Below, in pieces: positions 320 to 61,783 of a stretch of DNA of 64,000 nt (within the stretch, counting starts at the first letter, position 1; every line of letters starts with the position of its first letter). A program made the position numbers and the translations under genes. Below the pieces are notes generated by a model that worked only from the letters and a program-made list of their open reading frames with translations, did no database searches and had not been told where the DNA came from. The stretch is from Romanomermis culicivorax (Eukaryota; Nematoda; Enoplea; Mermithida; Mermithidae), in assembly GCA_963922205.1 (NCBI GenBank), contig CAWUHX010000116.1, forward strand, positions 310,001 through 374,000, in the 5' to 3' direction.

Positions 320-1856
320 GATCGTTATTCGTTAACATGCTTCACCCGCTCCTGTAGAACACCAATATATTCTTCATGAGCTCATTTTGGCTAATATAAC
401 TAGGATTTTCTCAATTTTTTTCTCATTTTCGCAGGTTTCTGACTCCAAATACAACAAAATGCATGGGTATGCTCCTAAAATGCATAAAAAAGCATCCGTA
501 GCCACATTATAAGCGTTTTAAAAATGTGGAAAATTTTTGGAAAATGAGGAAAAAAATTTTGGGTCCGATTCTCATGTGGAAAAAATCTTCGAGCAAAAGA
601 AACGGAGATTTGCACTATATAATGTGGGAAAAAAATCTGGAATGTGGAAAAAATTCTTGAGGTCTTTCCACAAATGTGGAAGAAAAATTTGGGGTCTTCA
701 TATTGAAGAGATGCATTTTAGGAGGTCCAAATCTCAAAATTTTCCGGCGCGAACTTTTATAATCATATATTACCAAGCACTGTTTTTTTCCCCAAATCAT
801 GCTTTTTCGGGAAAAAAAATTCGGGAAGGGGAAAAAAATTTTGGGCTCTTTCCCCATTTGGGGAAGAAAATTTTGGGGATCGGATACAGAAAAGATGCAT
901 TTTGGTGCATTTTAGAATGTCATAATCTCAAAATTTTCCGGCGCTTCGCGCCGATTATACCTTTAATAATCATTATTATGCATTACTCAGCTCAGGCGCG
1001 GCTTTTAGCACGTCTACCTTCATTTATCATATAATCTATAACAGTTTTCATCATCTTGAACGTATTCTCTCATGTTTTCATTGGCAATCTTCAATATTTT
1101 ATCATGATATATTTAATGAAGATTCGCATTTTTTCCTTTTGAGAAAGATCAGTACGTCAAGTCTCTAAGCTTTTTGATGCGATTATTTCTTTTCTAACGT
1201 AAAATCAATTCAAACGCTTCATGGAAATATCTTTCGGAATTTATACACCCTGCATATACTCATATATTTTCGACCAAGTATGAGAGTTTACAAATAAATT
1301 ATACTGGTTTTAAAATTTTTCAAGTAAAATTCTAGGAATTACGACTTTTGAACACAAAATTCAAATCTAATTCTCGAAATAAATGTTCGGAAAATTGATT
1401 TTCCAGCGTCGCAGAATATTAATACCCAAAAAATTAACATCCAGTTTGGGTTCTCACTTGTCATCATAGAGAACTTGACCATCGATTTCTCATGTAATTC
1501 TCAAAGTCATTATGCTTTTGGATAGTTTGCTTGAAAATTTGTTCCAATGCTTGTAGATTAAACTTTGAACTCGAAAATTTCAATTTTTTCCTCAATTTTA
1601 ATGAATTAACGGGTCTAAAAACACCAGCAGGCTTGAAAAGGCTCAAAAACACCCAAATAAAGCGTCTGTGAGCATTTTTAAGCGAAAAAAACGACTTTGG
1701 GAAAATGGAGAAAAAAATTTTGATCCCTTTCCCCATTTGGGGTAAAGGCCCGGGGGGAAAAAACAGTGTTACCAAGCTCAGGCGCGGCTTTTAGCATGTT
1801 TACCTTCACTGACCATTAATCTTTAATAGTTTTCATTATCTTGAACGTATTATTTC
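320..1856 (+). repeat. Family G sequence (two partial copies)
   Basis: Position 340-615 matches the right part of 58891-59944. Position 605-1768 matches 57657-58885 up to AACAGTG. Position 1769-1856 begins another copy (GCTCAGGCGCGGCTTTTAGC). A GC hairpin lies at 938-953. Confidence 0.65.
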
Positions 1857-2119
1857 ATGGACAATTTTGCAATATCAAATCAGTACAAAATTGGTGAATG
1901 TGATCTTGATGCTGTCACTGAAATGAAAGATCTTGGTGTTTATGTTGATGAAAGACTCAGTTTTGTTTCGCACTGTGATTACATGATCAAAAAGGCTTCT
2001 AGAGTATCAAATCTAATTTTTAAATGTTTCAAATCAAATATAAATGAATTAAAAATCAGGGCATTTAAAACTTATGTTCGCCCAATCCTTGAGTATGGTA
2101 AGTAGTCCTGTTTGGAATC
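1857..2119 (+). pseudogene. Non-LTR retrotransposon (LINE) reverse transcriptase fragment, part 1
   Basis: The translation reads KDLGVYVDERLSFVSHCDY, then KKASRVSNLIFKCF and FKTYVRPILEYG, the C-terminal thumb region of Jockey/CR1-type LINE reverse transcriptases. A one-base shift precedes SSPVWNP, where a family A element interrupts the frame. Confidence 0.8.
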
Positions 2120-2349
2120 CATACCTGTACTTAAGGGGTTGGGAGGACCCCCCTCCCCCAATTCGGCCAACCCAGCACCCAAAATCATTTACCCCCCCCC
2201 CCCCAGTTTGGAAAAAATTAAAAAAATTTGCCAAAAAGTGTAGTTTTTTGGTCTTTTTTGGGAAAAATTTCGACTTTTCTCTACCTCCCCCCCCAAAATT
2301 TCGGATTATTCCCCCCCCCCCCCAACTGGTCGGAGGTCTTACAGGTATG
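2120..2349 (+). mobile_element. Family A hAT-like MITE in a LINE
   Basis: A 230-bp element with ends CATACCTGTA / TACAGGTATG and 8-bp duplication TTGGAATC (2112-2119, 2350-2357). The interior has long C runs and the block CCAACTGGTCGGAGGTC. It has no coding capacity. Confidence 0.88.
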
Positions 2350-2357
2350 TTGGAATC

Positions 2358-3160
2358 CTTCGGTACTTATCCAGTTTGGTTCACTTAGTACCTTGGCGTC
2401 AACCGCTGGCATCTACAATAAGACAGCTGACGATTCCTGTTGAACAGAAATGCGAACCTACTGTTCATATTTCCATTCGAGCATCTCAAATCCAATTCAA
2501 CAATCGACAATGATCAGAGACACCAAGGAAGCGGAGCCAGTGGCGTAAGCCGAGGCACCGAGGGTGCCAGCGCAGCGCTGTGCCCTTCAGGCGCATCGCA
2601 TCGCTACGCCCCTAAGCCTAAGATTGTGTAAGCAAATTAATGCTTTTACTGATGTACACAGGATAGCTGCTCAATTACTGTAGACGCCAACGGTTGATGC
2701 TGCGGCAGGTGGACCAAAGTGGATAAGTGCCAATTCTTCTCTTAATGGGTGAAATACAAAGGGTAGAGAAAGTTCAGAAGTGGTTCACAAAACGATTATA
2801 TGGTTTTAACTCTAGGAATCATCAAGAAAGATTGGAGTCCGCCAGTCTGCATTCTCTTGAATTTAGGAGAACTAAACTGATTTATGCTATGTTTATTCTA
2901 TAATCTGTATTAGCATTTTGGACTCAAATAATTTTTTTGTGTATACATTAATTTTAATTATCGTGTTAACAACCCATATAAATTATATAAGACGAAATTT
3001 CGTACACGATTACTCCAAAAAGATTTTTGTAATTGATACGTAGAATATGTTACCTAGTCATGTTACACCTGCCGTTAATGTTCATGTATTTAAAAAACGA
3101 TGCATTGCGTATATGAGCTCACATCCGCGTGATACTAATCGCCTATAAGCTCGTGATAAT
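2358..3160 (+). pseudogene. LINE reverse transcriptase fragment, part 2 (broken)
   Basis: After the family A insertion a few codons continue. A second inserted segment (about 2385-2745, with imperfect ends near TTGGCGTCAACCG and its inverse) intervenes. LINE-like sequence resumes at about 2760 with VEKVQKWFTKRLYGFN, NHQERLESASLHSLEFRR and, after further stops, MLPSHVTPAVNVHVFKKR. This order is typical of the end of LINE ORF2. Confidence 0.65.
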
Positions 3161-4945
3161 ATTTTTTTCTTTATTCTTTTCTGAATTTATTTTTTCTAAT
3201 GACGAATAAATTATCTAAATTAATGAAGATCCGCATTTTTTCCTTCAAAGATTTTTTGAGGGAGATCAACAAGACTTCAACTTTCTCAGCCTTTGGAAGC
3301 GTTTGTTCTTTTCTTAACGTAAATTAAATTCAAAAGCTTCATGGAAATATTTTTGGGAAATTTCTACACTTCTGACTCATAGCTTTGGAGCCAGTTACGA
3401 ACAAATTAATGGTTTAAAAATTTTTCGAATGATAAATTTCTAGAAATTACGATTAATGAACACAGAATTTAAATCTAATTTTTGAAATATATACATAATC
3501 AGAATGCATTAAAAAGCTCAAAAACACTTAAATAAAGCATTTGTGAGGATTTTCAAGCGAAAAAAACGAGGATTTTGAGACAAAAAATTTTTTTCCACAT
3601 GTGGAAAAAAATTTAACCCCTTTCCACATTTGTGGAAAAAAGTTTGTGGAAAAAACGGTGGTCCCATCGTTTTTCCTTAAATGGTGTCACTGTTTTTTTC
3701 TACATTTGCACTATGATATGGAAAAAATTGGAATGTGAAGAAAATTTTGATTTTCATATTGAAAAGATGCATTTTGATGCATTTTAGGAGGTTCGCTTCC
3801 AGCGTTTTTTTCGTGCACAGACATTTGTGCCAATTATTGGCACAAGACGCCAAAAAAATTTGTGCCAATGGCATAAAAAAATTTTTCAACTAGTAACAGA
3901 AACTGCGCAGAAATTTCAGGCCAACCAAAAGTTTGATAACAAGTTAGCATTTAACGTTAATTTTTTGTTAAAATCGTGTCCAACTCACTGTTTTTTTTCA
4001 ACGAACTTTTTTGCACAAATGTGAAGAGGGATCAAATTTTTTTCCACAAGTGGTAAAAAATTTTTCCGTCTTTAAATCCTTATTTTTTCGCTTGAAAATG
4101 CTCATAAACACTCTATTAAAGTGTTATTGAACTTTTTAAAGCATTCTGATAATCATTATGATCAAATATCTCAAAAATTAGATTTAAATTTTGTGCTCAT
4201 AAATCGTAATTTATAGAAATGTACCATTCGAAAAATTTTAAAACCATTAATTTGTTCGTAACCTTTCATAAATTTGGCTGAAAAGCTATTAGTCAGAAGC
4301 GTAGAAATTTTCAAAAAATACTTCCATGAAGCTTTTGAATTCAATTTATGTTAAGGAAAGAACGAAGGCTTCAAAAAGTTTTGAAAGTTGGCGTGTTGAT
4401 CTTTCTCAAAAAATCTCTTAAGGAAAAAATGTGGAAATCGTCATTAAATATAAAGATATAATATTCATGATTGCAAATTAAACATGAAATAATACGTTTA
4501 AGATTATGAAAACTATTAAAGGTTAAATGGTAAGTAAAGGTAGACATGCTGAACGCCGCGTCTGAGCTTGGTAAAAAATAATAATGATTATTAAAGTTAT
4601 AACCGGCTTGAAGCGCCGGAAAATTTTGAGATTTGGACCTCATAAAATGCACCAAAATGCATCTTTCCAATATGAAAACCCCAAATTTCTCTTCCACATT
4701 TGTGAAAAGACCTCAAAAACTTTTTCCACATTCCAGATTTTTTTCCTCGTTATAGCGCAAATGTAGAAAAAACAGTGTCCAACTGGGTTCCCACACAACC
4801 CGGGAAACCCAGAGGATTTTTTCTTGGGCCGCATGTTCATACAAAAGCCCCAGCGCTTGGTGTATGTTAGTGTTTTTTGTGCCAAAACATGGTTTTTGGC
4901 ACAAAAAAAATTGGAATGACACAAAAAAAATTTGGGCGTTTGTGC
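3161..4945. repeat. Nested, partly inverted family G sequence
   Basis: Blocks typical of family G appear in both orientations around 3650-4000: CACTGTTTTTTTCTAC at about 3698 and AAATGTAGAAAAAACAGTG at about 4762. A hairpin of TTTTGTGCCAAAACATGG with its inverse lies at 4875-4905. Confidence 0.55.
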
Positions 4946-5556
4946 CAAATGGCTAGGGATGGGCCGGGTATCCGGATCCGGGGATATCCGCCTAAATTTT
5001 AGGATCCGGATCCGATCCCGATCCGCTAAATCAGATTTTTTTGGATCCGGATCCGATCCGGATTCGCCAAACCAAATTTTTTAAGATCCGGATCCGCTGT
5101 TGTCAATGATTAAGATCCGGTCATAATCGGATCTTTATTCATTATTATTCTCATAAAATTTTGCAGTATTAGAAAACACCAGAAATTTTCCGGCGCTTCG
5201 CGCTGGATTAAATAATTCTTTGCAATATTATTTTTCAACAAATAGTGCTTCCTGGAGAAAAAATTTCCAGTAAAGGAAAAAATTTTGGCGGTCCTCCTGT
5301 ACGGAAAAGGCGAATTTTGGTCCATTTCAGAACGTCAAAATCTACTCCAACTTTTTTGCAACTTAAATTTTAAACATAAAGCCGAGTTTGAATTGAGAAG
5401 CATCATGGAACTAATTTTCAGAAATTTCAGGTTTAAATTGAAGTTTTTCAGATTTATGAAAGTTATGAGTATATTTTCTTAATTTCTAAGATGATTATGA
5501 AGGACGGGAACTCGAGTGCTATTAGGAAGAAACTATGTGCGAAAATACATAAAAGA

Positions 5557-5817
5557 TCATGGTTTTTTCAGTGTACAACAAAAAATTTCTTCGTACAAAG
5601 ACTTTTTGGCCGATCGTTTTACAGGTACAAAGAGGCTTGTACACAAAATCACTGCAATGGTAGCAAAATTATACTTGTGAAACAGTAATTTTTCAACAGT
5701 ACCACTCTTCAAACGATTTTTGGTAGGATCATAAATTTGATTAGCACCACTAAATAGCTGTTCATAGGGGACACTTTTCGCTGGTGCTAATTTAAGTTTA
5801 CTTTCTGCATGAAGCAA
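5557..5817 (-). pseudogene. hAT transposase C-terminal dimerisation remnant (copy 1)
   Basis: The frame contains YEQLFSGANQIYDPTKNRL followed by VEKLLFHKYNF, the conserved end of the hAT C-terminal dimerisation region. It lies about 170 nt downstream of the BED frame in transcription order, in another frame. The intervening catalytic RNase-H-like region of several hundred codons is absent. Confidence 0.75.
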
Positions 5818-5987
5818 TTGTCCAGAGACGTTTGAGATTTAAGTTCATGCTATAATTTGGTTTTTGAGTAGCTAGGTTCATTTTTTGGCTATCTCTAAAG
5901 AAAACACAAAAATTAATTCTTTAACATAACTTTACTTTACTAGTAGCAATTTGTTCCACAATTACTTCTATTTTCATTATCTTCTTT

Positions 5988-6176
5988 TTATTTAGCCGCA
6001 AACTGCTTATATATTGCCATATGTTTCCTCTCCAAATGTTTTCTCTGACATCCAGTAGCACAACCTTTTCTGGATAACTGTATTCTGCATTTATTGCACT
6101 TTGCCTTTTCTTCATCATCTGGGGACTCTGTGAAGTAGTCCCACACTCTGCTAGTGAAGGAAAAACTCAAATCCAT
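5988..6176 (-). pseudogene. BED zinc finger remnant of hAT transposase (copy 1)
   Basis: A 62-codon frame reads SRVWDYFTE, then the CNKC cysteine pair and the C-terminal histidines in RKHLERKH, which is the BED finger signature (Cx2C..Hx4H). BED fingers bind DNA at the N-terminus of hAT transposases and of domesticated ZBED genes. The frame stops right after the finger. Confidence 0.8.
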
Positions 6177-6559
6177 AATTTCTGAAAAAAGTTTCCATTT
6201 CTATTTATTTCTTTTCTGATGAAACCAATATTAATCTAAACATGAATACAATTTAATGAATGAAAATTATCAATTAGTACATGTGAACTATTTCAATAAA
6301 CGAACACCTCAATCATTAATAATCTATTAATCTATTGACACCAATGAATACAAATTCATTTAACTCAATTTTAGACAAATTAGACATAGTACATATACTT
6401 ATTGAAAGATCCGGATCCACGCGGATCTGTTCCTCAAGATCCGGATCCGTTGAACCAAATTTTTTTGGATCCGGATCCGCTGAACCAAATTTTCCAAGAT
6501 CCGGATCCGGATCCGCTGTCGCCAAAAAAGTCAATCCGGCCCATCCCTGCAAATGGCAC

Positions 6560-7260
6560 AAATTTTTTGACTGGTCAACGGCTATATTTCCTTGATTTTT
6601 AGTCATTTTGGGAGGTGAAAACGCAAAATTTTCTCGGCGCTCCGCGCAGGCCGAGTCAATTAATATAGTTATGGTTTTTTTTACTTTTATTTGTTTAGAT
6701 TGAACCTGAGAGGATTGTGTTCGAATATTATATGTGTATGATCGCAACAAACTATGAGATTGTCAATGATTGAAAAATGAATACAAACGGTTAACTTCCG
6801 CTGTTCATTCAGTGTGATTGGGAACCGAAATTTTTATTTTTTATGTTTGATTTGAACAGAAAAATCGACGTTGTTGGCGCAATTTTTCAACCAGAAATTT
6901 ACGGGACGCGACTTTCGGCTTAGTTTTTTCATAAGAAAGCAATCATGGACACTCTTAATTTAATTACATCGTTGTTAAGAAGAAATTCTTAGTCTAAAAT
7001 TAAAGAAAAATATGAAATGCCTGAAAATTTATAATAAAAATATGTGAATTCTTGCTGCAGCATCCGATTTCTTTTCGAATCGTATAAACTGCTTTTTTCG
7101 ATCAGTTTTTCTTATCGCCCTGACGTGCTTAGATAAAATAGAGTTGGCACGATTTTTATTCAAATTAGTGCGGCGAAATCTTTAGTTATATTTCTTAAAC
7201 TTTTAGCATATTAAAACTTTTTTAAGGTTTTCAGTATATTTTTAGAATGGAAAAAATTTT
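6560..7260. repeat. Dispersed repeat S, copy 1
   Basis: It aligns with 11640-12330 over roughly 700 bp (for example GATGAATGAATACAA, TCTGTTCATTCAGTG and AAAAATTGGCACTG-like words). Each copy begins near a GC-rich CTCCGCGCAG hairpin. Confidence 0.6.
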
Positions 7261-7275
7261 TTGTGCTGTTGGCAC

Positions 7276-8376: not shown

Positions 8377-8519
8377 AACTACCTGTAAGAGGTTCGACCA
8401 GTTGGGGGGGGGGGTCAAAAAAGTCGAAATTTTTCCCAACAAAGGCCAAAAAAGGCACTTTTTGCCAATTTTTTAAAGTCTGGGAGGGGTTGGATACAGG
8501 TTTGGCCAAGTTGGAGGGT
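8377..8519 (-). mobile_element. Family A copy, truncated
   Basis: It starts with TACCTGTAAGAGGTTCGACC and the G-run block, and stops at the tRNA-bearing repeat at 8520 without its second end. Confidence 0.6.
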
Positions 8520-8745
8520 CAGAAAAATAACGCTCGGTAAAGGGCTCGAACCCTCAACATTATGCATACAGGGCAGATGCGCTATCCAATTGCGCTAACC
8601 GAGCCACGCGGATGGTTCGGTTGGTTGTTTGGTTGGTTGGTTCGAAATTGTGCTTGTAGTAGTGGTGGTTAGTCCGGGGCATGCCGCGTAATGAATAGCC
8701 AGACGCACCACTACAACACCCCCCAAACAGGTATGGCGTCCAATC
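8520..8745 (-). repeat. tRNA-Thr-associated repeat unit, copy 1
   Basis: The unit is a decayed tRNA plus a conserved 5' flank. The flank contains arms GTAGTGGTG and CACCACTAC around a short GCGGCATGCCCCGC palindrome. It abuts the truncated end of a family A element at 8519. Copy 2 is at 20413-20600. Confidence 0.6.
8532..8604 (-). pseudogene. Decayed tRNA-Thr copy in a tRNA-containing repeat
   Basis: This is the same sequence as the tRNA at 20431 but degraded. The anticodon stem (TCTGC with GCATA) and T stem (GAGGG with CCTTT) are mispaired and one base is added in the D loop. The acceptor stem and B box survive. Position 8605-8712 repeats the 5' flank of the intact copy, with an extra TTGG-rich insertion. 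Confidence 0.75.
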
Positions 8746-8880
8746 TATTTTCCAGTCCAACTAACCATGTCAGTGAGATAAGAAAAAACTGTGCATAAAA
8801 ATAGTTCACGACGCCTCAAAAACAAATGAAATGCTGAGAAAATTTAAATTACCCTAGAATTGTTCAAGAAGTTCAAATTG

Positions 8881-10338: not shown

Positions 10339-11020
10339 TCAAATTGATTCAATTTTCAACTAACGAATATTTATTATATATTCAACAACGATATGAAGAT
10401 TAGAGAAAATAAAGTCAAAAATTGTGTAAATTTTCGGTCTAAACATTGTACGATTACCAACGGCCTCAGCGCAAAGCCCCAAATTTTTTTTGATTTTCAG
10501 CCCCTAAAACATCTAAAAATCAAGGAAATTTAATGTTTGACCAGCCAAAAATTTTGTATCAATTGGCACAGACGCTCAAAATTTTTTGTGCCATTCCAAA
10601 TTTTTTGTATGCCAAAAACCATGTTTTGGCACAAAACAAACACTGTTCACTTCTAATCTCAAAACTTTCCGGCGCTTCGCGCCGGTCATAACTTCATTAA
10701 TTATTAAGTGTTATTTAATTCCCAAGCTCAGGCGCTGCTGTTAGCATGTCTACCTTCACTAGTTTTCATCATTTTAAACGTAATATTTCATGTTTAATTG
10801 GCAATCTTGAATATTTTATCTTTATATTTAAGGAAGATCCGCATTTTTTCCTTCATATATCTTTTGAGGAAGATTATCGCGTCAACTTTCTTAACTTTTT
10901 GAAGCGTTTGTTCCTTTCTTAACGTAAAGTGAATTAAAAAGCTTCATGGATGTATTTTTGGAAAATTTATACGCTTCTGACCAGTGGCTTTTACAGGGGT
11001 GACAACTGATATAGTGACAT
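10339..11020 (+). repeat. Family G-like sequence with GTGCC hairpin
   Basis: The CCGGCGCTTCGCGCCGG hairpin is at 10669-10685, followed by the GCTCAGGCGCTGCTGTTAGC block. TTTTTTGTGCCATTCC and GCCAAAAACCATG precede it. Confidence 0.55.
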
Positions 11021-11034
11021 GTCACCAACATTAC

Positions 11035-16600: not shown

Positions 16601-19600
16601 AGGGGTATGAGGGGGGTATTACCCCTACCTGAAGTCCTTAAAATCGATCACTGGCTGCCTAATTTTGAGACCAAATGACTTGTTTAGTGGACATTTAGCT
16701 AACACTACCCCCGAAAATTTTCAATTTTACCCCTACCTGAAAAATCTGACCTTGGGGACCTCTGAGCTGGAGCATAAATTTATCATGTTTGTGTATGATT
16801 CCGGCTACAGCTGAGCTACAGCTAAAGGTATTCAACTCGGCTGAAGCTTGACTTCATACTTGAGCAATGCCGGGAGTCACCGGGTAGCTACGTTTTGGGG
16901 TCCGGTAGCTACGTTGGCGGCTGTCAGTGGCTCCAGAAAATCAACACATCACAAAGTGCAGAGAGAGAGAAAACTGAAAGAGTAAGATTAAAAAAAGAGA
17001 GAGAGAAAGAAAGAAAAAAGGGAAGAGATAAAGAGAGACAGACCGAGTCGGTCAATAAATCAACCAACTTAAGAAACAATCAACCAACCAATCCGGTAAT
17101 CAACCGAATAACCCACTGATTTGGTGAGCAACCAATCAGTAGGTATGAGATACAACCAACCAACTGATAAAGAAAGCAACCAACCAACCGATGAAATGAA
17201 CCAACGACTTTGGGAAATATCCAACCAACAAATCCGGGGGATCAACCAACCGGCCAACTGATCTGGGAAGCGACCAAGGAATTTGGGAAATAACCAACCA
17301 GGGTTTTTTAGGCCAATTTGGAGCCATGGCCCTTAAAAATTCTAATTGGCTCGTATAAATTTGGCGGCACAAGCCAAATTACCTTGTAAAAATCAGAGCT
17401 GGTTCCCCGTGTGTAGGGTTCCCTGTGTGTAGATGCATTTTTGTGCATTTTGAAATGGAAAATACCAAAAATTTCCCTTCAAATCAATTATGATTCTTGG
17501 TATCACTTCCGTTGTTCGGTTGGAAAATGTTGGCCTAGCTTATGCTTATAGCTTTTAAAAACCAGCATGTTATGGATGAATGTTTGATCTTTTATTATTT
17601 TTTCACGTATATGAGAGAAAACTCCAAAATGCATTTTTTCATCCCCATTATAACAATAGGAATACAGCTGGATACTGATCGGAATAGATTGAAAACCAGC
17701 TCTACATCTGAGAAAGGAACTGGAAGGAACCATACATGCACATAGGGGTATGGGGCGTAAACCCTCCAACCTGAGACCCGGGACACCCCCTGACCCAAAA
17801 AATCGCCTAACCCCCATGAGAGTTTTCCAAGACAGTTTTTTTTTGAGATTTTTATGCATATTTTGTATTTTATAAAAACATGGTTGTGGAACTTTTTGTT
17901 TTTCCACTCACCCACCCCATAACCTCCCTGAATAAAAAGTCAGAGGATCCTCTCCCCTGAACGATTCTCGCAGTGCATGTCTGAAAAAATAATCAAAAAA
18001 GAAGCAAAAAGAACTTGGCGTGTGAAAAATTAAAAAGAAAGGGAAACATCAGACAATAAATATAGCATGTACGCAGTGCTTTTTTGTACTTGGTCTATTT
18101 GTACCGGTACAAACCACCTCTCAAAAACCGTTTGAACTCCAAAATTTCGAAAATTTGCTGAAATTTGCTTTAAAAAAATTTCGTTGTAATAAAATGCACC
18201 AAACATGATGTGGAATATGAATATGTTGGCCATTTTCACGAGACACATGAGAAGACTGCAAATGCACACTCATAAAACAGTTGATCATGAGGCACAGAAC
18301 ATGCACAAGTAAAATACTCCACAAAAAGCTTTTATTATTTCGCCATGGCTGCTAGTTTGCCTTTATCGATGCGGACGCATAAGAAACAAGGCCTAACAAG
18401 TCCATTGACACTGAATATGGACTGCTGATGAGTGATGAAAAATTTTTTGCGCTAAAATTTTCGTTTGTACTGGTACAAATGAAGCCAGAATTTTCGTTTA
18501 TACTCTGGACCGTTTCGTTTGTAAAGTACAAAAAAAAACTCTGGATGTACGTAATCGTGTGGATCAAACAACAAAATTCGATTAAGATATAAAACAAGTT
18601 TAAAAAATCTTTTGTTTTCGATGAAAGTCTAATTTTTTGCTTTTCAGATCTGTCTTTATACAAGTTATATTGAAAATTCATTTTTTTAGTCAGAGATGTT
18701 CAACTTGAATATTAATTGATTATGATTATATCTTTTATATACAAAATGCAGTATGAAAATTATGTTCGGTGTGCTTTTAATAATCGAATGATTGTTTGTT
18801 CGGTAGCCCATAAGATAAACATTAAGAGGCGTTTAGAAGATCAACAGCATGTGAGAATGAATTTTGGGATAAAACCGCAAACAACCGACATTTTCAGTAT
18901 TTGTTTTTTAACTCATAACCAAAATGTCAAGATCTTGTCAACCTAGCCAATATTGAATGTATGTAATCATTAATTTATGTATTGCGCGTGTCTTTTATTT
19001 CAGAACTTCAAATTGTTTTATCGCAATATCGCTCAGTGCCTGATGCTTTATTTTAGATCGCGTCACCAACGACGATCAACGTTATCGGCAACCGGAAGGA
19101 CTCGACGTTGCCGTCACCATTGTTTTTCCAACAATTTTCGCATGCATTCTCCTTGTAGCCGCTATGCTTTTCGGTATCAAGAAATGTAAACAATGGGAAC
19201 TGGATAGAATCGTGGAAATGCGTAAGAAATCGTTGTCGAGTTGACATATTTTCCTGACTAATACATTTTTCAGGTCGCACACGTCGCTTGATACAGCGTA
19301 TGACACAAACTTTGCGTGAAAAAAATTTTAGAACATTACAGGGTAAGCTTAGTATGAGTTTAATCATTACCGTTTCAATAAAAAATTGCTTTGCGGGATA
19401 GCAACAAAAGGATTCATAGTTATGGCAGGGGCAAATACACTATTTTTAAAAGTTGGTAGTTGGGCACACTCTCAAAGATGACCGCAACCTCTCTCCAGTA
19501 TCTCTATTAGGTGACGGGGATTTATCACTCAAGAGAGAAAAAATTTTTTTATAAGAGTATTATTTTCTAATGATATGGAATAGTCACTTCAGGAAAATAA

Positions 19601-51450: not shown

Positions 51451-51452
51451 CA

Positions 51453-51805: not shown

Positions 51806-52391
51806 GCAAAGTCGTATTTAGGGGGGGGGGGCGGGGGCTGTCGTCTCTCCACGGGACTTTGTCATATGTCGATTTCGTGTCTATTACTGAGAAAAATCTA
51901 AAAATTTTCCGTCATGAGTATATGTCACAGTCATTGTTTTCTATCAGGTGTGGCCGTCAGGACATCTACTTCCACTTACTAATTAACCTTCAACATTTTC
52001 GATCAACTTAATTAGCTCATCTCTTTTCTATTAGTTAAAAGTCAATATTGTACTGCCGATTAGGGATGGGCCGGATCGACTTTTTTGGCGGATCCGGATC
52101 CAAAAAAATTTGGTTCAGCGGATCCGGATCTTGAGGAACAGATCCGAGCGGATCCGGATCTTTCAATAAGTATATGTACTATGTATAATTAGTCTAAAAT
52201 TGAGTTGTATGAATTTGTATTCATTGGTGTCAATAGTTTAATAGATTATCAATCATTGAAATGTTTGTTTATCGAAATAGTTAACATGTACTAATTGATG
52301 ATTTTCATTCATTAAATTGTATTCATGTTTAGATTAATATTGGTTTCATCAGAAAAGAAATAAATAGAAATAGAAACTTTTTTCAGAAATT

Positions 52392-52580
52392 ATGGATTTG
52401 AGTTTTTCCTTCACTAGCAGAGTGTGGGACTACTTCACAGAGTCCCGAGATGATGAAGAAAAGGCAAAGTGCAATAAATGCAGAATACAGTTATCCAGAA
52501 AAGGTTGTGCTACTGGATGTCAGAGAAAACATTTGGAGAGGAAACATATGGCAATATATAAGCAGTTTGTGGCTAGATAA
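52392..52580 (+). pseudogene. BED zinc finger remnant of hAT transposase (copy 2)
   Basis: The 62-codon frame differs from copy 1 at a few residues only (for example SRDDEE for SPDDEE near residue 18). The BED cysteines and histidines are kept. Confidence 0.8.
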
Positions 52581-52746
52581 AAAGAAGATAATGAAAATAG
52601 AAGTAATTGTGGAACAAATTGCTACAAGTATAGTTATGTTAAAGAATTAATTTTTGTGTTTTCTTTAAAGATAGCCAGAAAACTGAACCTAGCAACTCAA
52701 AAACCAAATTAGAGCATGAACTTAAATCTCAAACGTCCCTGGACAA

Positions 52747-53046
52747 TTGCTTCATCTAGAAAGTAAACTTAAATTAGCACCAGCGAAAAGTGTTACCTAT
52801 GAACAGCTATTTAGTGGTGCTAATCAAATTTATGATCCTACCAAAAATCGTTTGAAGAGTGGTACTGTTGAAAAATTACTGTTTCACAAGTATAATTTTG
52901 CTACCATTGCAGTGTTTTTTTGTACAAGCCTTTTTGTACCTGTACAAAGATCGGCCAAAAAGTTTTTGTATGAAGAAATTTTTTTGTACACTGAGAAAAC
53001 CATGATCTTTTATGTATTTTTGCACAAAGTTTCTCGTCCTTCATAA
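52747..53046 (+). pseudogene. hAT transposase C-terminal dimerisation remnant (copy 2)
   Basis: It carries the same YEQLFSGANQIYDPTKNRL block as copy 1, with a slightly different downstream tail. Confidence 0.72.
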
Positions 53047-53571
53047 TCATCTTACAAATTAAGAAAATATACTCATAACTTTCATAAATCTGAAATACTT
53101 CAAGTTAAACCTGAAATTTCTGAAAATTAGTTCCATGATGCTTCTCAATTCAAACTCGGCTTCATGTTTAAAATTTAAGTTGCAAAATAGTTGGAGTAGA
53201 TTTTGACATTCTCAAATGGACCGAAATTCGCTTTTTCCGTACAAGAAGACCGCCAACATTTTTTCCTTTACTGGAAATTTTTCTCCAGGAAGCACTATTT
53301 GTTGAAAAATAGTATTGCAAAGAATTATTTATCCGGCGCGAAGCGTCGGAAAATTTTTGGTGTTTTCTAATACTGCAAAATTTTATGTGAATAATAATGA
53401 ATAAAGATCCGATTATGACCGGATCTTAATCATTGACAACAGCGGATCCGGATCTTAAAATATTTGGTTCAGCGGATCCGGAGCCAAAAAAATCTGGTTT
53501 AGCGGATCCGGATCCTAAAATTTAGGCGGATATCCGCGGATCCGGATACCCGGCCCATCTCTACTGCCGAT

Positions 53572-54850
53572 TAATAAGATTTTTCATCGTTCCTTACAAT
53601 TTTTTCTCACTTCTGGCTTGGAATTTTCCAATTCCTTTGAAACGTGAATTATCGCATCTAAAACGAACAAAACACTATTCTAGGACTGCAAATTAAGATC
53701 ATCTATTGAAGAAATTATTGCGAACATTCAATTTCCAGCAATTTGGAACACAGAAATCCGAAAATTTTTCCAGCACTATGCGCTGGGCGCTGGGATAAGA
53801 AAAATATAACAATCCATTACTTTGATTCCACGTTATTTACATTTTTATAAACATTTATTTTCCAGTCTTTCAGAATAACCTAATAATTTTCCGGCGCTCC
53901 GCGTTTTAACGTTTTTAAACGTTCAACTTCTTTGGAATCAAGTACGCCTTGTTTACAAAATTGTTTAACTACAGCATCATTTTGATTTTTTGTGACGACT
54001 TTCTCTTCTCTCTTGCTCATTTTCCTTCGTCAACTTATCAATCATTGCTGGAGGGGTCAAATCTGCTGGAGGTCAGCAAAAATCTGTTAGAAATCAATCG
54101 AAATCTGTTGGGTCTCAATACCCGCCAAGCCTTCCTCACGTGTATGTACGGTTGGCAGGCAACACTGGTCAGGCCCACTCTTTTTTTCACATTTGCACTA
54201 TAATGTGGAAAAAAATCCGGAATGTGGAAAAAATTTTTGAGGTCTTTCCACAAATGTGGAAAAAAATTTTGGGGTTTTGATATAGAAAAGATGCATTTTG
54301 GTGCATTTGAGAAGGTCCAAACAATTTTACGGCGCTTCGCGCCGGTTAGAACTTCAATAATCATTATTATTTATTACCAAGCTCAGGCACGGTTTTAACA
54401 TGTCAACCTTCACTTATCATTTAATATTTTAATGTTTTCATCATATTGAACGTATTGTCTCACGTTTTTATTGGTGATCTTTAATATTTTATCTTGATAT
54501 TTAATGAATATCCGCATTTTTCCTTGATACATTTTTTGAGAACGATCAAGACATCAACTTCATAAACTTTTTGAAGCGATTGTTTCTTTCTTGACGTAAA
54601 GTGAAGCCAAAAGCTTTATGGAAGTAATTTTCAAAGATTTCTACTCTTCTTACTCGCATCTTTTCGGCCAAAATCACGAAAGTCTATGAATAAATAACTG
54701 GTTTAAAAATTTTAAAAATGATAAAATTCTACAACTTATGATTTTCGAACACGAACTTCAAATCTAATTTATGAGATATCTGTTCGAAAAATTGGTATTA
54801 CTGCGTGTGGTTCACACCTATCTTATAACGTTATACACCTTGGGCATAGA
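53572..54850 (+). repeat. Family G sequence flanking BED-hAT copy 2
   Basis: Position 53572-53930 continues the G-type element split by the BED-hAT insertion. Position 54170-54850 is a further partial G1-like copy, with a GC hairpin at about 54330-54345. Between them lies the AATCTGCTGGAGGTCAGC repeat. Confidence 0.55.
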
Positions 54851-54876
54851 GGGTTATTGGAAGGGGATTAACGGGG

Positions 54877-55029
54877 CGAGGCTTAGGCTTTGACTTACTC
54901 TTAGGCTCAGGCTTAGGCTTAGCCTTGGGCATGATCTTAGGCTCAGGCTTAGCCTTGAGCCTGAGCTTAGACTTAGGGCGCAAGTCTAAATAATGTAAAA
55001 GCCTAAGCCTAAGAAAAGCCTAAGCCTCG
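54877..55029. repeat. Inverted TTAGGC-like arrays
   Basis: Degenerate TTAGGC units run rightwards from 54877, then the reverse GCCTAA units end at 55029. The outermost 15 bp, CGAGGCTTAGGCTTT and AAAGCCTAAGCCTCG, are perfect inverses. Confidence 0.7.
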
Positions 55030-55091
55030 AACAGTTAATCTTCCAAAACCCACCATTTAATGGTCAAGCGTGTACGTTATGAGATGGGTGT

Positions 55092-56213
55092 CATACCTGC
55101 AATTGGGGAGGGGACCCCACCCCAACTTAGCCGAACCCTCTTATACCCAGATATTAGAACCCCCACCCCAACTTGGTCAACCCTTTACCGAACCCCCTCA
55201 AAACTTGGAAAAAATTACGAAAAAAATAACTCTTTTGGGAAAATTTTCGAAGTTTTTTCGACCTCCCCTAAAATTTCGGGAATGACCCTCGCCCAGCGAT
55301 CGACCGGGTACCCGGCCCCGGCCGGTCAGACCATGCCCGGGCCCAGGCTTAATGTTTAAAATGAATTATTTTCCATTTAGTTCATTTAAACATCATATAC
55401 ACAGACTGAATAATTAAAAAGTAAAAAGTGCAGACAGTGCAATGCATGAGTCATCTAACAATAACGAACAATTGGCCAAAGTAATAACACATCTTTTGTA
55501 ATTTATATTGCTTAATTTAAGCTTGTATGTACAAAAAGTGTGACTATGTTTATTTTCAATTTCATACCTGTATATATGTACCTAATGATTTTAGTTGGCT
55601 AAATAATACTTATGCCATCCCAGTGGAAACGCTAGTGAGCAAGAGTTTAGCGCAGCCGCCGACATAGCCGATCATGACCGGAACAGGTTGCTGCCCGAAA
55701 ATGTTAACGAATTACCTTTTCTCAAGTACAATATTCGCAAAAGTTCCTTTTAGTTGCTTAATATTAACTTGATAAAGATTAAAGAATAAACAATTTTTTA
55801 CAAATTATGGTCTTGTTGCTTATATTCTGTTTCATGCTTCACATTCTTATATGACTGTTTTGACTAGCCTGTATAGGCGCAACAAACCCGGGCCCGGTGC
55901 AAGGCCCCGTGAAAAATTCAGGTCCAGGCCGTGTGAAATTTTGAGCCTGGTCGATCGCTGCCCCACCCAGGTATGCTGTAAGAGGTGCGACCAGTTGGGT
56001 TGGGGAGAGCATAAACCCAAAACTGTGGGTTGGGGGTCAAAACATTTCCAAAATTTTGGCGGGTTTGAAAAAAGTCTAAAAAATTCCCAAAAAAGCCACG
56101 TTTTTCCTAATTTATTCCAATTTTTCCAAGTTTGGGGAGGGGTTGAGTATAGATAGGGTTCAACCAATTCAACTAACCTCCCCCTCCAATTACGGGTAAG
56201 TCTTACAAGTATG
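55092..56213. mobile_element. Composite family A element with inner hAT-like insert
   Basis: Outer ends CATACCTGCA / TTACAAGTATG are flanked by duplication ATGGGTGT (55084-55091, 56214-56221). Inside, 55294-55960 has its own ends CAGCGATCGACC / GGTCGATCGCTG. The inner duplication is unclear (CCCTCGCC against CCCCACCC). Confidence 0.7.
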
Positions 56214-57656
56214 ATGGGTGTCAACCAGAAATACCGAAAAATTTATTACCAGAATGCTTTAAAAAGCTTAAAAACAGTTAAATAAAGCATCTGTGAGCAT
56301 TTTTAAGCGAAAAAGCGAGTTGGGAAAAATGAGCCAAATCTTTTGGACCTCTTCTTTTCGGTGTTTTTTTGATGAAAATTTTTTGCCCCATTTGAGGAAA
56401 ACCCCCAAAAAAATTTTCCTCATAGGGAAAAATTAATTTTTTTAGTTTCCTTGCTTTAAAATCGTTCAAAATGATTTCTGATGTGTTTTTTGTACGTTTC
56501 TCATTAACTTGCATTTTATTCCACGAAAAAACTGTCATTTTTCTCGCAAAAAAGTTCGAGCTAATGACCTGCTAGTAAATAAATATTTAAGTGAGTTTAC
56601 ATGATCTAAGCAAGAATATAATTCAACGGCAGAACCTCTTTGACGATATAAACAACTTAATTTCGATCTAACAAGTAAAACAAACAGTAAACTTCGATAA
56701 AACGATAACAAGGAGAAATAAAATTTTAGAACTGATTCTGAACAGCTGACAATCTGACATAAAGGTGTGAAATGGACTACAAAGGCTTTCTTGTGCGAAG
56801 GCCAGGTTCCAATCCAATGTGCAACTTGGAGGAAAATTTTTATTGCACAGTTGTTCACTCTGAAATCAAAAAATTAGCTTAATTTTATCGGAAAACTCAC
56901 CAGAAGCTAGTTTTCTTCTATTTCATTCGATTCGCGTCGGTTTTAGCCTTTTAAAACCAAATTTTTTGTGTTTTGTTGACGAGAAAATGAAGATTAGAAT
57001 GAGTAACTCGTTCGGCGCCTAGCGCCAAAAATTTTTCTGCGATTTTAATATTCTAGAACGCTCGAAAATGAACCTTTTCAACTTTTATTTCCTAGACAGA
57101 AGGTTTAATTTTTCAGTGAATTCAATGAATTTTCAGTCGGGCAGACTACAATTCAAAACAAAAACTAGAAAAGCAACCAAGAATTTTGATTCTTCAGCCA
57201 GCAAGAATTCCCACTTGGACTCAAAATGTTTTAATCACACAAATGTCAAAATCTTTTTGAAGAGCGCAAAAAGACTGGCAAAATAGTCGAGAAAAATCTT
57301 GCTTTTCGTCAAATTCTCAAAAAAACGTCACAGGATCAAACATTTATCCATAATATATTGATAATTAAAGGCTATAGTTAATCATTAGCTAGAATGACAT
57401 TTTCTAACCGCGCATTAGAATAATATAGAAAAATTAATCCGGCGGAAATTTCAACAATTTTCAATTTTATAACGCGTAAAATGCACCTCCGAACAGGAAA
57501 CCATCAAAAAGTTTTTCCGTAAAATTTGTGCCTAAGTACAAAAAAATTTGGCTCAATATAAAAAAAAATCATCAAAAATGGTCGATTGAGGAAAAAACTG
57601 TGCTCCTTTCCTTATTTGGGGAAAAGGCCGGCGGAAAAAAACAGTGGGATGATAAG

Positions 57657-58885
57657 CACTGTTTTTTTTCCACATTTGCACTATAATGTGGAAAAAAATC
57701 TGGAATGTGGAAAAAATTTTTGAGGTCTTTCCACAAATGTGGAAAAAAATTTGGGGTTTTCAAATTGAAAAGTTGCATTTTGGTGCATTTTAGGAGGTCC
57801 AAATCTCAAAATTTTCCGGCGCTCCGCGCCGGCTATAACTTTAATAATCATCATTATCATACCTGTAAGACCTCCGACCAGTTGGGGGGGGGGGGGTAGG
57901 AAAAAGTCGAAATTTTTCCCAAAAAACATACACTTTTTTGAAAAATTTTTTTTTTCCAAACTGGGAGGAGTTGGGGGGAAATGATTTTGGGTACAGGGTT
58001 GGCCAAGTTGGGGGGGGGGTCCCCCCCCCAACCCCCGCCCCAAGTACAGGTATGATCATTATTCATTAAGTAGCTCAGGCGCGGCTTTTATCATGTCTAC
58101 CTTCATTTATCACTCAATCTATAATAGTTTTCATCATCTTAAACGTAGTATCTCATGTTTTAATTGGTAATCTTCAATGTTTTATCATAACAGATTCGTA
58201 TTTTTTTTCCTTTTGTGAAAGATCAATACGTCAAGTCTCTATGCTTTATGATGCGATTATTTCTTTGCTAACGTAAAATCAATTCAAAAGCTTCATGGAA
58301 ATATCTTTCGGAAATTTATACTCTTCTTACTCATATATTTTCGATCAAGTTCATGAGAGTTTACAAATAAATTACAGATTTTAAAATTTTTCAAGTAAAA
58401 TTCTAGAAATTACGACTGTTGAACACAAAATTGGAATCTAATTCTAGAAATAAATGTCCGGAAAATTGATTTTCCAGCATCCCAGAATGTCAATATACCC
58501 AAAAAATTTCCGGCGCGCGCCGGAAAGGTTACCATCCTTTTTGGGCTCTCGCTTGTCATCATAGAGGACTTGACCATTGATTTCTTGTGTAATTCAAGTC
58601 AACTTTGCCCTTGGATAGTTTGCTAGAAAATTTGTTCAACAATGCTTGTAGATTAGGCTTTTAAATCGAACATTTCAATTTTTTCTTCAATTTTAATGAA
58701 TTAACTTTTCTGAAAACACCGGAAGGCTTGAAAAAGCTCAAAAACAGTGCGATAAAGCGTCTGTGAGCATTTTTAAGTCAAAAAACGAGGATTTTTAGAC
58801 GAAAAAAAATTTTTTCCACATGTGGAAAAAAAATTTGACTCCTTTCCACATTTGTGGAAAAAAGTTCGTGGAAAAAAAAACAGTG
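57657..58885 (+). mobile_element. Family G element 1
   Basis: Ends CACTGTTTTTTTTCC / GGAAAAAAAAACAGTG. Its 8-bp duplication ATGATAAG is restored only when element 58891-59944 is removed (left 57649-57656). It carries the hairpins CCGGCGCTCCGCGCCGG (57816-57832) and CCGGCGCGCGCCGG (about 58509). Confidence 0.8.
57858..58054 (-). mobile_element. Family A hAT-like MITE inside family G
   Basis: A 197-bp element with duplication ATCATTAT (57850-57857, 58055-58062). Orientation is opposite to the copies at 2120 and 40433, so G runs replace C runs. Confidence 0.88.
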
Positions 58886-58890
58886 ATGAT

Positions 58891-59944
58891 CACCTTTTTT
58901 TTTCCTCAAATGGGGTCTTTTGAGGAAAAAAATTTCGAAATGAGAAAAAAAATTTTGGGTATGGTTCTCATTGAGGAAAAAATTTTGGGGAATTTCAAAC
59001 CGAAAAGATGCGTTTTGGTGGACTTAAAAGGTCGAAATCTCAAAATTTTCCGGCGCTTCGCGCCGGTCACGTGTACAATCTTGACTATTTTCCATCAGGC
59101 GCGGCAAGGCAATTAGCATATCTACTTCGACTTACTAATTAATGCTCAACAGTTTCTATCAATCAAGTTAGCTCGTTTCATTTTCTAATCGTTAACAGTC
59201 AATTATGTCGCCCAATATTGAGATTTTTCATCAATTTTCTCAATTTTTTCTCTCGATGTTTGGAATTTCTTAAACGTCTGCAACCTGAACTTTTGCGTTT
59301 ATTGAAGATAGAAATTGAAGACATCATTCTAAACTGCGATTTTCGAACTTCTGTTTATGAATATCTGTTGGAGAGATTTATTTTCGAGCGTTTTAGAATA
59401 TAAAAACTGAAAAATTTTCCCGGCGCTTCGCGCCGGAATGGGAAACAAATTATACTTCATGAGTATTTTTTTTCTACATGTGGAAAACGGATTTTAATTT
59501 ATTTACCAACGTTGTGAAGGTTCAATTTCCAGCGTTGTAGAAAGTGAAAATCCAAAAATTTTTCCGGCGCTCCGCGCCGGACGAAGGACTAATTAAAATT
59601 AGATGATTCTAATGAGAGCCATAGAAATGTTAATAGCGGATAAATTCCTGAAAACTCCGTTATTCGTTAACATGCTTCACCCGCTCCTGTAGAACACCAA
59701 TGTATTCTTCATGAGCTCATTTCTAACAAACATATCAGAATTTTCTCAATTTTTTTCTCATTTTTGCAGGTTTCTGACTCCAAATACAACAAAATGCATG
59801 GGTATGCTCTTAAAATGCATAAAAAAGCATCCGTAGCCACATTATAAGCGTTTTTAAAAATGTGGAAAATTTTTGGAAAATGAGGAAAAGAATTTTGGGT
59901 CCGGTTCTCATGTGGAAAAAATCTTCGAGGAAAAAAAAACGGTG
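58891..59944 (+). mobile_element. Family G element 2
   Basis: Ends CACCTTTTTTTTTCC / GGAAAAAAAAACGGTG with perfect duplication GTGATGAT (58883-58890, 59945-59952). It carries three GC hairpins at 59050-59066, 59420-59436 and 59564-59580. Confidence 0.83.
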
Positions 59945-59952
59945 GTGATGAT

Positions 59953-60442
59953 AAGGCGTTTCGTTGTAATTTCTAGTCATATATTGACGTGTTCCTTTAC
60001 TAACTCATAGGATTATGAGAAAAAAAATTTCGCCAATAAATTTTCCACATGTAGAAAAAAAATTTGATTTGTCACATTTGTGAAAAGAAGTTCGGTGGAA
60101 AAAGCTTTTTGCCCCAAGCCCGCAAGGTCAGTACAGTAAGTTTTAGTCGAATACGTGGAGCACACATCAAAATTGAGACTTTTTCAAATTGCCAATGAAT
60201 GATTTTTGGTTGATCTGAACCTGAACATGATCTGAACATGACAAATTCAACTTCAGTATGCTGCAATGGGGAAGACTGATCACTTACTCATTATGTTCGG
60301 AATCTATTTCAAACAAAAGGCCATTACTGAAATCACCAAAGCGAATAAATATCATCGAACTGATGTTTACTGTAATTCAGTGCAAAAATCCGCAATTTCG
60401 TTGCCGTTATATTGATTCTCTTCCTGTAGAATTTATAGAAAA
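59953..60442 (+). other. Upstream region of eL31
   Basis: It begins with a short family G remnant (to about 60110). The rest appears unique, with CTCTTCCTGT (60418) and an AG at 60437-60438 just before the start codon. Confidence 0.45.
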
Positions 60443-61783
60443 ATGGCGAAGACGAAGAAGGATAAAAAAGAAAAGTCGGCCGCCAACGAGGTGGTAACGC
60501 GTGAATACACGATCAACCTCCACAAGCGGATTCACGGCATGTAAGTGTCTTTTTTAATATTTGGGTCCATGTCATGTAATTTCCTGTGTTTTTTTGCTCA
60601 CAGCACCTGTACTTGGGGGGGTTTGGGGAACCCCCCCCCCCGCAACTTGGCCAACCATATACTCAACCCCCCCCCCCCAGTTTGGAAAAATTTGCAGAAA
60701 TGTGGAAAATTTCGACTTTTTTCGAACCCCCTCCTCTATACCTGTAAGACCTCCGACCATTTGGGGGGGGGGTAGAAAAAAGTCGAAATTTTTCCCAAAA
60801 AACATACACTTTTTGGCAAATTTTTTTAATTTTTTCCTAACTGGGGGGTAAATGATTTTGGGTACTGGGTTGGCCAAGTTGGGGGGGGGGTCCCCCCTCA
60901 AGGACAGGTATGCCCTCCTCCCACCCAAATTTCTGATTTACCCCCCCCCCTCCCCCAACTGGTCGGAGGAACTATTTTTTTCCACATTTGAACTGGAATG
61001 TGCAAAAAAATTTTGAGGTCTTCCCACAAATGTGGAAGAAAAATTTTGGGTTTTCATATTGAAAAGATGCATTTTGGGAGATCAAAATCTCGTAATTTTC
61101 CGGCGCTTCGCGCCGGTTATAACTTTAATAATTATCATTATTCATTAAGTAGCTCAGACGCGGCTTTTATCATGTCTACCTTCATTTAGCACTTAATCCA
61201 GCGTTTTTTTTTGTGCACGAACATTTGTGCCAATTAGCGCAAGGGGCCAATTTTTTTTCTAATTTTTGAGCGGGCGCGTTCATTTTTCAGCGGCTTTAAA
61301 TATCGCGCGCCACGTGCGATCAAGGAAATTCGGAAATTCGCGTTCAAACAAATGGGAACGCAAGATGTTCGTGTCGACACCCGTGTTAACAAGCACGTCT
61401 GGTCTCACGGTGTGAGGTAAATATATTTTAAATCATGAATAACCGCCATTTCCAGTTTTCTTGTATCCTTTATCCGCATGACCAGTTGCCGCTATCTCAG
61501 CTGTCCCATATACTTTTCAGGAACGTTCCGTACAGAGTACGCGTCCGCTTAAGCCGTCGTCGCAACGAGGACGAAGACTCTCCTCACAAATTGTACACTC
61601 TCGTTACATTCGTTTCCGTCGACAAATTTAAAGGTACCAAAGAAAATTTCTTCGAGCCTGATTGAATATTTTGAAAATTGAACTTGTGTCAATTTTATTC
61701 AATACTGATAACTTTTCTTCTTAGACCTTGTGTCATTGTGAAATTTTTCAGGCTTGACAACCGTCAACGTCGATAACGAATGA
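60443..61783 (+). CDS. RPL31: Large-subunit ribosomal protein eL31
   Basis: Four exons: 60443-60540, 61291-61416, 61521-61633 and 61752-61783 (stop TGA), giving 122 aa with all phases consistent. A basic N-terminus precedes [18 protein letters not shown]. Further blocks are [49 protein letters not shown] and a C-terminal [10 protein letters not shown], all standard for eL31 near the peptide exit tunnel of the 60S subunit. The start codon follows a TTTATAG acceptor by 4 nt. A pyrimidine tract CTCTTCCTGT at 60418 could instead be a 5'TOP transcription start. Intron 1 (750 nt) contains nested family A elements and a family G fragment. AATAAA at 61838 follows the stop, and uS19 begins only 225 bp downstream on the same strand. 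Confidence 0.97.
60601..60968 (+). mobile_element. Family A host copy in eL31 intron 1, split by a second copy
   Basis: The two halves 60601-60736 and 60913-60968 read as one family A element, with ACCTGTAC at the left and CCAACTGGTCGGAGG at the right. The final TACAGGTATG end is missing, so the right terminus is truncated. Confidence 0.75.
60737..60912 (-). mobile_element. Family A copy nested in family A
   Basis: A 176-bp element with ends TATACCTGTA / GACAGGTATG and duplication CCCTCCTC (60729-60736, 60913-60920), inserted in inverse orientation into the copy around it. Confidence 0.85.
60969..61205 (+). repeat. Family G fragment in eL31 intron 1
   Basis: It starts TTTTTTTCCACATTTG, carries the perfect hairpin at 61100-61116 and stops inside the CATGTCTACCTTCA block. 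Confidence 0.6.

Follow-up and report, generated by a model that had tools for sequence, protein, structure and literature searches.

The window analysed here, a 64,000-nucleotide (nt) stretch of the genome of the mermithid nematode Romanomermis culicivorax (assembly GCA_963922205.1, contig CAWUHX010000116.1, positions 310,001 to 374,000), contains many copies of a short GC-rich hairpin that, as proposed in a preliminary description of this DNA, belongs to one module common to transposon families of unrelated appearance. The hairpin forms the 3′ part of a subterminal module of about 61 nt in one assemblage of hAT-type transposable elements that appears to have multiplied in this genome, mostly as short copies in which no transposase gene was found. 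It may well be a selected, cis-acting DNA structure of that assemblage, not tied to the particular word that each family carries at its ends. Genome-wide counts refer to the window's own assembly (359 Mb in 595 contigs), while the module itself was surveyed in 264 kb comprising the window and twenty 10-kb stretches of contig C1. These stretches were picked for holding exact hairpins, so the sample is not random, and the consensus sequences of the families, whose names (A, G, F1–F13, D4 and C) were coined in the present analysis, rest mainly on them.

The hairpin had been estimated to occur about 25 times in the window. A search of both strands for GGCGCTTCGCGCC with up to three mismatches gave 40 matches (mean of 100 shuffles 3.29, maximum 8), which collapse to 24 distinct places because the palindromic arms match both strands, and a profile of the wider module gives 32. 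All 14 sites that had been named exist: the 17-nt form is perfect at 10669, 38114, 59050, 59420 and 61100, and variants lie at 939, 24515 (minus strand), 37219 (earlier given as 37222), 38477, 40982, 53333 (minus strand), 54330, 57816 and 59564. Genome-wide, the exact 13-mer GGCGC-TTC-GCGCC was counted 10,896 times (5,407 + 5,489) against two for its reversed control, and its ten copies in the window represent about five times the genome's average density. The 264-kb sample holds 169 copies of the module, and alignment of their flanks delimits the shared unit as about 44 nt of AT-rich sequence that end in AAAATTTT, with the hairpin 3′ of them; the AAAATTTT- and CCAGCGTTTTAGAA-like words previously reported ahead of the hairpin are real. 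The hairpin consists of a 7-bp stem and, instead of the tetraloop (TTCG and others) first proposed, a 3-nt loop (TTC, TCC or TAC) closed by a C-G pair. Folded as RNA, it reaches −12.8 kcal/mol, and both strands are equally stable.

Conservation is what sets the hairpin apart from its surroundings. Among ten family-level modules, mean identity is 0.91 over the 17-nt hairpin versus 0.56 over the 64 nt upstream, in agreement with the earlier impression that the arms are kept while the neighbouring sequence decays. None of the ten core stem bases differs between these modules, nor do loop bases 1 and 3; variation is seen at the loop centre and the outer positions. Decay within families (0.058 for the hairpin, 0.098 and 0.110 for the flanks) was set aside as evidence, the 20 C1 stretches having been selected for exact hairpins. 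The compensatory arm changes whose search had been recommended are present at the outer pairs but, beyond age effects, absent at core pair 2-12. An ungapped hairpin within five mismatches is present in 156 of the 169 copies, and direct counts in these found paired double changes 26 times at pair 1 (T-A, mainly in the F6 and F10/F11 groups), seven times at pair 2, twice at pair 3, never at pairs 4–6, and twice at pair 7 (two related, damaged copies). Genome-wide, stem position 2 is changed in 496 copies (reversed control 4), position 12 in 574 (control 82), and both in 141 (control 48). Judged by eye on the first 100 listed of each, A-T doubles at this pair exceed the independent expectation about 2.3-fold, with unpaired T-T and A-A doubles 1.9- and 6.6-fold in excess; since the unpaired doubles are also too frequent, differences in copy age explain the A-T excess. 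The C-G doubles, 49 of the 100 listed, are hard to interpret given a high control.

The carriers bear the hallmarks of hAT elements. Exact 8-bp target-site duplications flank copies of A, G, G′, F6 and D4 as well as the F5 copy L014 (CCCCCAAC), the terminal inverted repeats (TIRs) are short and of the CA...TG type (CACTG, CACCG, CAGTG/CAGCG, CAGGG and CATAC ends), and word maps place subterminal repeats at both ends. A hAT C-terminal transposase domain shares an element with the module in relic C only, as a piece, where it and a BED finger lie on the strand opposite to the module. Consensus lengths are 1037 (A), 1027 (G), 863 (F5), 811 (F6) and 438 bp (D4), and the first module starts 119, 118, 125, 120 and 184 nt from the element end, respectively; further modules lie deeper inside in the same orientation, one each in A and F5 and two in G. 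With these lengths (438–1037 bp), and with 792 first-look candidates from a genome search with the 119-nt end of A, the families may be miniature inverted-repeat transposable elements (MITEs). The 40 of these candidates that were scored are 98–100% identical, and family A is young; among 20 family-A ends that are 99–100% alike, the exact 17-mer stands in 15, and in three more the stem is intact over 6 bp or more. Finally, a scan blind to the hairpin looked in the window, the C1 stretches and locus L041 for CA...TG inverted ends flanked by an exact 8-bp duplication. It returned 40 candidates, 29 with the module inside and 11 lacking it. Of the 29, seven extend over more than 1.2 kb and are read as enclosing other elements or pairing unrelated ends. 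The carriers and modules of the window are the following.

697–750, plus strand: family A module, hairpin reading CCGGCGC-GAA and then broken off; inverted loop with a deletion after it, in our reading a template-switch footprint.
778–1768, plus strand: family A hAT element with end word TCCCCA, TIR CACTGTTTTTTT and exact 8-bp duplication TTACCAAG; module at 894–954 with hairpin at 939–953, and a second module at 1394–1435 without a remaining hairpin.
4602–4665, minus strand: family A module with one arm damaged (GGCGCTTCAAGCC).
4954–6541 (approximate limits), no strand assigned: BED-hAT relic C, with GGATCCGGATCC repeats near both ends.
5158–5206, plus strand: module of relic C, about 350 nt past the open stretch on the reverse strand in which the hAT domain piece lies.
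5557–5838, minus strand: open stretch of relic C with a piece of Dimer_Tnp_hAT, the hAT dimerisation domain (E 7.7e-5).
5991–6200, minus strand: BED zinc finger of relic C, zf-BED (E 3.2e-12).
6590–6650, plus strand: F6-type module with loop TCC.
10655–10685, plus strand: family A module fragment with a perfect hairpin at 10669–10685.
24325–24742, minus strand: D4 element, hairpin at 24515–24527.
28519–28583, minus strand: F11-type module with a 7-bp stem and a 5-nt loop.
29285–29338, minus strand: F5-type module with hairpin GGCGCTTCGCGCC.
37172–37231, plus strand: module with hairpin GGCGCTTTGCGCC at 37219.
37994–38950, plus strand: G′ element, a 5′-truncated G within another hAT element, with TIR CATGGTCGTGCGCA / CAGGGCCGTGCGCA and exact 8-bp duplication TGCACAGC; hairpins at 38114, 38477 and 38600 (the last damaged), and an internal G end ...AAAAAACGGTG.
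40747–41194, plus strand: D4 element, hairpin at 40982–40994.
52069–53565, minus strand: second copy of relic C, hairpin at 53333–53349 (minus).
53724–53787, plus strand: degenerate module CCAGCACTATGCGCTGG with a paired A-T change at pair 3.
54176–54806, plus strand: partial family A element, hairpin at 54330–54344.
57013–57073, minus strand: F10-type module with loop TAG.
57654–58785, plus strand: family A element with an insert; first hairpin at 57816–57832 (TCC), second module at 58465–58523 with its loop deleted (CCGGCGCGCGCCGG).
58891–59944, plus strand: G element with three modules (hairpins 59050, 59420 and 59564), exact 8-bp duplication GTGATGAT and TIR CACC(G/T)TTTTTTTT.
60985–61198, plus strand: family A fragment with a perfect hairpin at 61100–61116.

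Other identities for the carriers were considered and set aside. In Helitrons, a hairpin lies just inside the CTRR 3′ end, with neither target duplication nor TIR, whereas the hairpins described here sit far inside elements having TIRs and 8-bp duplications. As for autonomous parents, L041 has an open 844-aa hAT frame but no module, and at L030 the family-A-type modules near a hAT domain were read as a neighbouring insertion. The L041 element (L041:1854–5749), with its open frame of the DUF4371 type, lies between frames that look retroelement-like by eye, and a short derivative of it occurs at L025:8683–9391.

The ends of the carriers had been described as unrelated, and the words they carry do differ; the interiors, in contrast, are 84–89% alike in the A group, and one family is a nested composite. 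In the A consensus, the word CCACA is found at 16+, 33−, 53−, 78+ and 85− and again 69, 64, 39 and 32 nt from the other end, while in the F6 consensus GTGCCA is found at 15+, 33−, 53−, 77+ and 85− and 72, 65, 41 and 33 nt from the other end; each of the two words is absent from the other consensus. Family G has a word of its own, CCTCA, along with five occurrences of the A word, and F6 contains two copies of the F5 word TGCACA. The interior comparison covered A1 (L024:4744–5781), A2 (L022:5896–6903) and A3 (L011:5838–6906), which count TCCACA, TCCCCA and ACAAGC, respectively, among their commonest end words. The element at 778–1768 also has TCCCCA, and its interior was left out of the comparison. 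Across the three loci, the short end word looks to have been swapped in concert at 7–10 sites. As far as alignment of the copies goes, this demonstrates that palindromic end words were swapped at matching sites at both ends with the interior retained, and the transposase of each family probably binds that family's end word. By the same kind of comparison, G′ (37994–38950) is demonstrably a composite, in which a 5′-truncated G with a recognizable 3′ end lies within a different hAT element and has multiplied with it as one. The ends look unrelated, then, because end words have been exchanged and some elements are nested composites.

Descent of all carriers from one element, named in the preliminary description as grounds for refuting its proposal, holds in part. 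Segments of the family consensus sequences were compared with 500 shuffles, the 5′ segment being taken without its first 10 nt and the module. No shuffle equalled the 5′ match of A with G, A with F6 or G with F6; for G–F5, F5–F6 and A–F5 the shuffles as good numbered 3, 25 and 76 of 500, and the 5′ segment of D4 has no significant match with A, G, F5 or F6. Between the modules, 0 of 500 shuffles were as good for A–G and 1 of 500 for G–F5, and A–G is the sole pair that beats every shuffle in all parts. Common descent is accordingly firm for A and G (all three segments), good for the end of F6 (5′ segment only) and weak for F5, with D4 and relic C linked to the others through the module only. 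Upstream of the hairpin, the second modules of A, G and F5 are 0.67–0.73 alike across elements versus 0.51–0.63 alike to the first module of their own element, which suggests, as far as similarity goes, that the module pair predates A, G and F5 and that their ancestor already had it.

The loop provides a different kind of evidence. With core arms intact, TTC (10,896 copies) is accompanied by 4,602 copies changed at the loop centre, 668 at the first base and 2,643 at the third. Relative to the exact count, changed copies amount to 6.1% for the first loop base and to 4.6% and 5.3% for stem sites; the first base is kept about like the stem, and the centre varies seven times more. The high variation of the centre and third bases would imply source elements with other loops. 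Within the context AATTTTCCGGCGC-NNN-GCGCC, the loop is TTC in 3,757 copies and its inverse, GAA, in 39 (reversed controls 0). All 27 triple-change loops combined reach 106 in this context, GAA's 39 included, and the first 100 listed comprise GAA 36 times, GCA 11, CCA 10, CAA 7, AAA 6 and GAT 5. GCA, CAA and AAA are the inverses of TGC, TTG and TTT; triple changes other than inversion also recur, as CCA illustrates. Twenty of the 39 GAA places were read, and 19 have an inverted loop between unchanged arms, with the flanks normal on either side and at least six element groups represented by eye. The remaining one is a head-to-head junction, and some of the 39 may descend from one flipped source. 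Two further copies, at 712–750 of the window and in L080, have an inverted loop followed by a deletion. Two modules joined head-to-head through one common hairpin, as if at the palindrome, were seen at L023:8994–9102 and in L101. The 20 short stretches fetched for rare loops, some of them without a module by eye (such as L042, L043 and L057), were used only for the L055 end.

Inversion of spacers by template switching at inverted repeats, along with repair of the arms, is documented in the literature (PMC8794818, PMC8604942), where the loops of perfect inverted repeats are likewise flipped with arms unchanged; a row of the yeast table even gives ttc → gaa. In the yeast study, inversions were seen only with arms longer than 9 bp; the present stem has 7 bp, and a single motif carries the change in 39 copies. 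Taken as traces of template switching, the flipped loops place the action of the arms at the DNA level, and we infer that the arms fold or pair as DNA during germ-line replication or repair. Flips make up about 1% of copies in the context tested versus 4.6–6.1% changed copies per stem or first-loop site, so arm repair by this route looks too rare to hold the arms.

In their 8-bp target duplications, TIRs and subterminal repeats, the carriers resemble BED-type hAT elements such as Hermes and Tol2, and relic C adds a zf-BED and a hAT domain piece to the likeness. They differ in having a conserved 7-bp GC hairpin among the subterminal repeats, up to three times per element and kept despite changing end words. 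According to the Hermes study (PMC10368747), the BED domain binds a quasi-palindrome at nt 11–27 of the left end, and several BED domains bind that end and none the right. By analogy, BED sites so near the end would fit the swapped words as transposase sites, leaving the hairpin as something else. The Drosophila MITE mar (PMC3517528) is likewise a short, non-autonomous hAT derivative with inverted ends, and the terms "hairpin", "stem-loop" and "secondary structure" are absent from the main text of its description. DNA mini-hairpins of the d(GCGAAGC) type, with a GNA loop, are described as very stable (PMC4686876); the exact sequence GCGAAGC is found on the strand complementary to the module, where TNC loops read GNA. 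A strict GNA-loop rule is weakened by the non-GNA loops TTG and TTT, which are common here (42 and 46 by eye of the first 100 listed third-base variants), and the two strands of the present hairpin have equal folding energy.

Several observations weigh against a selected structure of one hAT assemblage. The 11 hAT-like candidates without the module include L041, with its open transposase frame, and a T-run hAT family with GTACAAA end repeats (62642–63101, with an 8-bp duplication; related copy at about 18080–18535) also lacks it, so not all such elements need the hairpin. Among 150 listed hAT-domain places (1,837 first-look candidates), the 12 loci inspected yielded no coding parent of A, G, F5, F6 or D4, and no complete autonomous carrier turned up. 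Because the C1 stretches were chosen for exact hairpins and the families were recognized by means of the hairpin, its conservation looks stronger than it is, and families without a hairpin, or with another, are under-represented. Stems accompany 13 of 20 window matches and 87 of 98 C1 matches of a 44-nt profile of the upstream stretch, which was itself trained on 103 hairpin-bearing copies; the seven window misses comprise an offset artefact with an intact hairpin (54290) and copies that to the eye look damaged or truncated. Compensation at core pair 2-12 does not exceed what age effects explain. The backbone is also weak beyond the 5′ segments: D4 aligns with no other family; between modules, shuffles were as good in 184 (A–F6), 58 (G–F6) and 59 (A–F5) of 500 cases; in the 3′ part they were as good in 0 (A–G), 10 (F5–F6), 11 (A–F5), 20 (A–F6), 166 (G–F6) and 198 (G–F5); and runs of A and T may inflate the scores.

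Among the alternatives, a role at the RNA level is unlikely. In this case, the hairpin would end, stabilize or process the transposase transcript of autonomous parents, and non-autonomous families would have inherited it from different parents. The module of relic C does lie about 350 nt downstream of the open stretch with the hAT domain, near the element end, with AAAATTT following the hairpin on the transcript strand, and the fold is stable as RNA (−12.8 kcal/mol); however, two or three copies in the same orientation per element are odd for a terminator, the equal folding of both strands picks neither, no Rfam family reaches gathering score for the hairpin, and loop flips are a DNA process. 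A resemblance to small nuclear RNA (snRNA) or SmY RNA, which have a 5′ helix, a U-rich linker and a 3′ hairpin, was rejected, as folds of 13 subfamily modules have no common upstream helix by eye and Rfam matches in the window are limited to two tRNAs. It is also doubtful that the hairpin has no function, being an ancestral passenger whose apparent conservation reflects kinship and hairpin-based finding and whose arms are mended by template switching. Both arm repair and the inversion of spacers have precedent (PMC8794818, PMC8604942), inversions do occur in the present genome, the tested core pair is uncompensated and the sampling favoured the hairpin, but inversions at about 1% look too rare beside 4.6–6.1% changed copies per site, the first loop base is kept like the stem with a centre seven times more variable, and the upstream neighbours have fallen to 56%. 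A dyad site for a dimeric DNA-binding protein, recognized in the duplex as GGCGC-N3-GCGCC, would be a variant of the selected-structure reading and compatible with it, if improbable in itself: the palindromic arms and variable spacer (4,602 centre variants genome-wide) suit such a site, while its symmetry predicts equal change at spacer bases 1 and 3, which are changed 668 and 2,643 times, and the A4T4 tract is present on one side only.

A tiny, independently moving unit, as suggested in the preliminary description, or separate capture of the module by each family, is very improbable. D4 does have about 37 nt by eye, the hairpin with the sequence immediately preceding it, in common with A, G, F5 and F6 in the absence of significant 5′ similarity, and direct repeats of at least 6 nt are found at the edges of 11 of 167 modules (mean of 200 re-dealings 4.9, maximum 10). 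This excess is slight and amounts at most to a hint, since copies that are related do not count independently. The mean longest edge repeat of 3.59 nt was reached by 22 of the 200 re-dealings. When both flanks were joined for 167 of the 169 modules and searched in the 264 kb, no clean empty site was seen, with alignments judged by coordinates and not each base by base. Nineteen of the 167 gave an alignment across the joint, on module copies, A/T-rich repeats or a hairpin-less D4 relative at 42761–43096, in which a longer stretch is gone and only the CGG of the hairpin is left, at the edge of the larger gap; a second hairpin-less D4 relative, at about 51,600, keeps the 3′ arm. The place of the module within elements is fixed, and A, G and F6 have a common 5′ backbone.

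Several features of the surveyed DNA stand apart from the hairpin. Interstitial TTAGGC repeats, presumably of the nematode telomere type, lie at 54879–54977; two tandem TTAGGC units matched 24 times in the 264 kb, and TTAGG and TTAGGG not at all. The window also contains a patatin-like phospholipase exon at 31844–32281 (Pfam E 2.2e-7) and two tRNA-Thr (TGT) genes, at 8531–8604 and 20430–20502, within stretches that are about 80% similar (8519–8722 and 20418–20596).

A cis-acting DNA structure would account for these observations as follows. The ancestral element, as indicated by the second modules, would already have had the module pair. End words were swapped at both ends with the interior retained, and some elements nested into composites, the core of the hairpin remaining invariant throughout. 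Judging from this conservation, the hairpin is probably under selection in the source elements, and, since the core stayed unchanged through the swaps, that selection is probably not tied to the end word. The hairpin would act as DNA, with template switching between its arms in the germ line, as the flipped loops suggest, and, adjoining an easily melted A4T4 tract, it could be used by a host factor or at a transposase step common to the families. A possible, if tentative, extension is that it represents a portable structure working with many transposases or with a host factor, such that the end cassettes, and hence the mobilizing transposase, are swappable. Neither a hairpin like this one in hAT elements nor a structure-based cis element of such a kind for hAT transposons was found described in those parts of the open-access literature that were searched. 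If the hairpin is indeed a selected DNA structure, hAT transposition would involve a second, structural cis signal beside the end words. The exchanged words offer a natural series on the joint change of transposases and their sites, and the loop flips, 39 versus 3,757, a natural counter of germ-line template switching at a perfect short hairpin.

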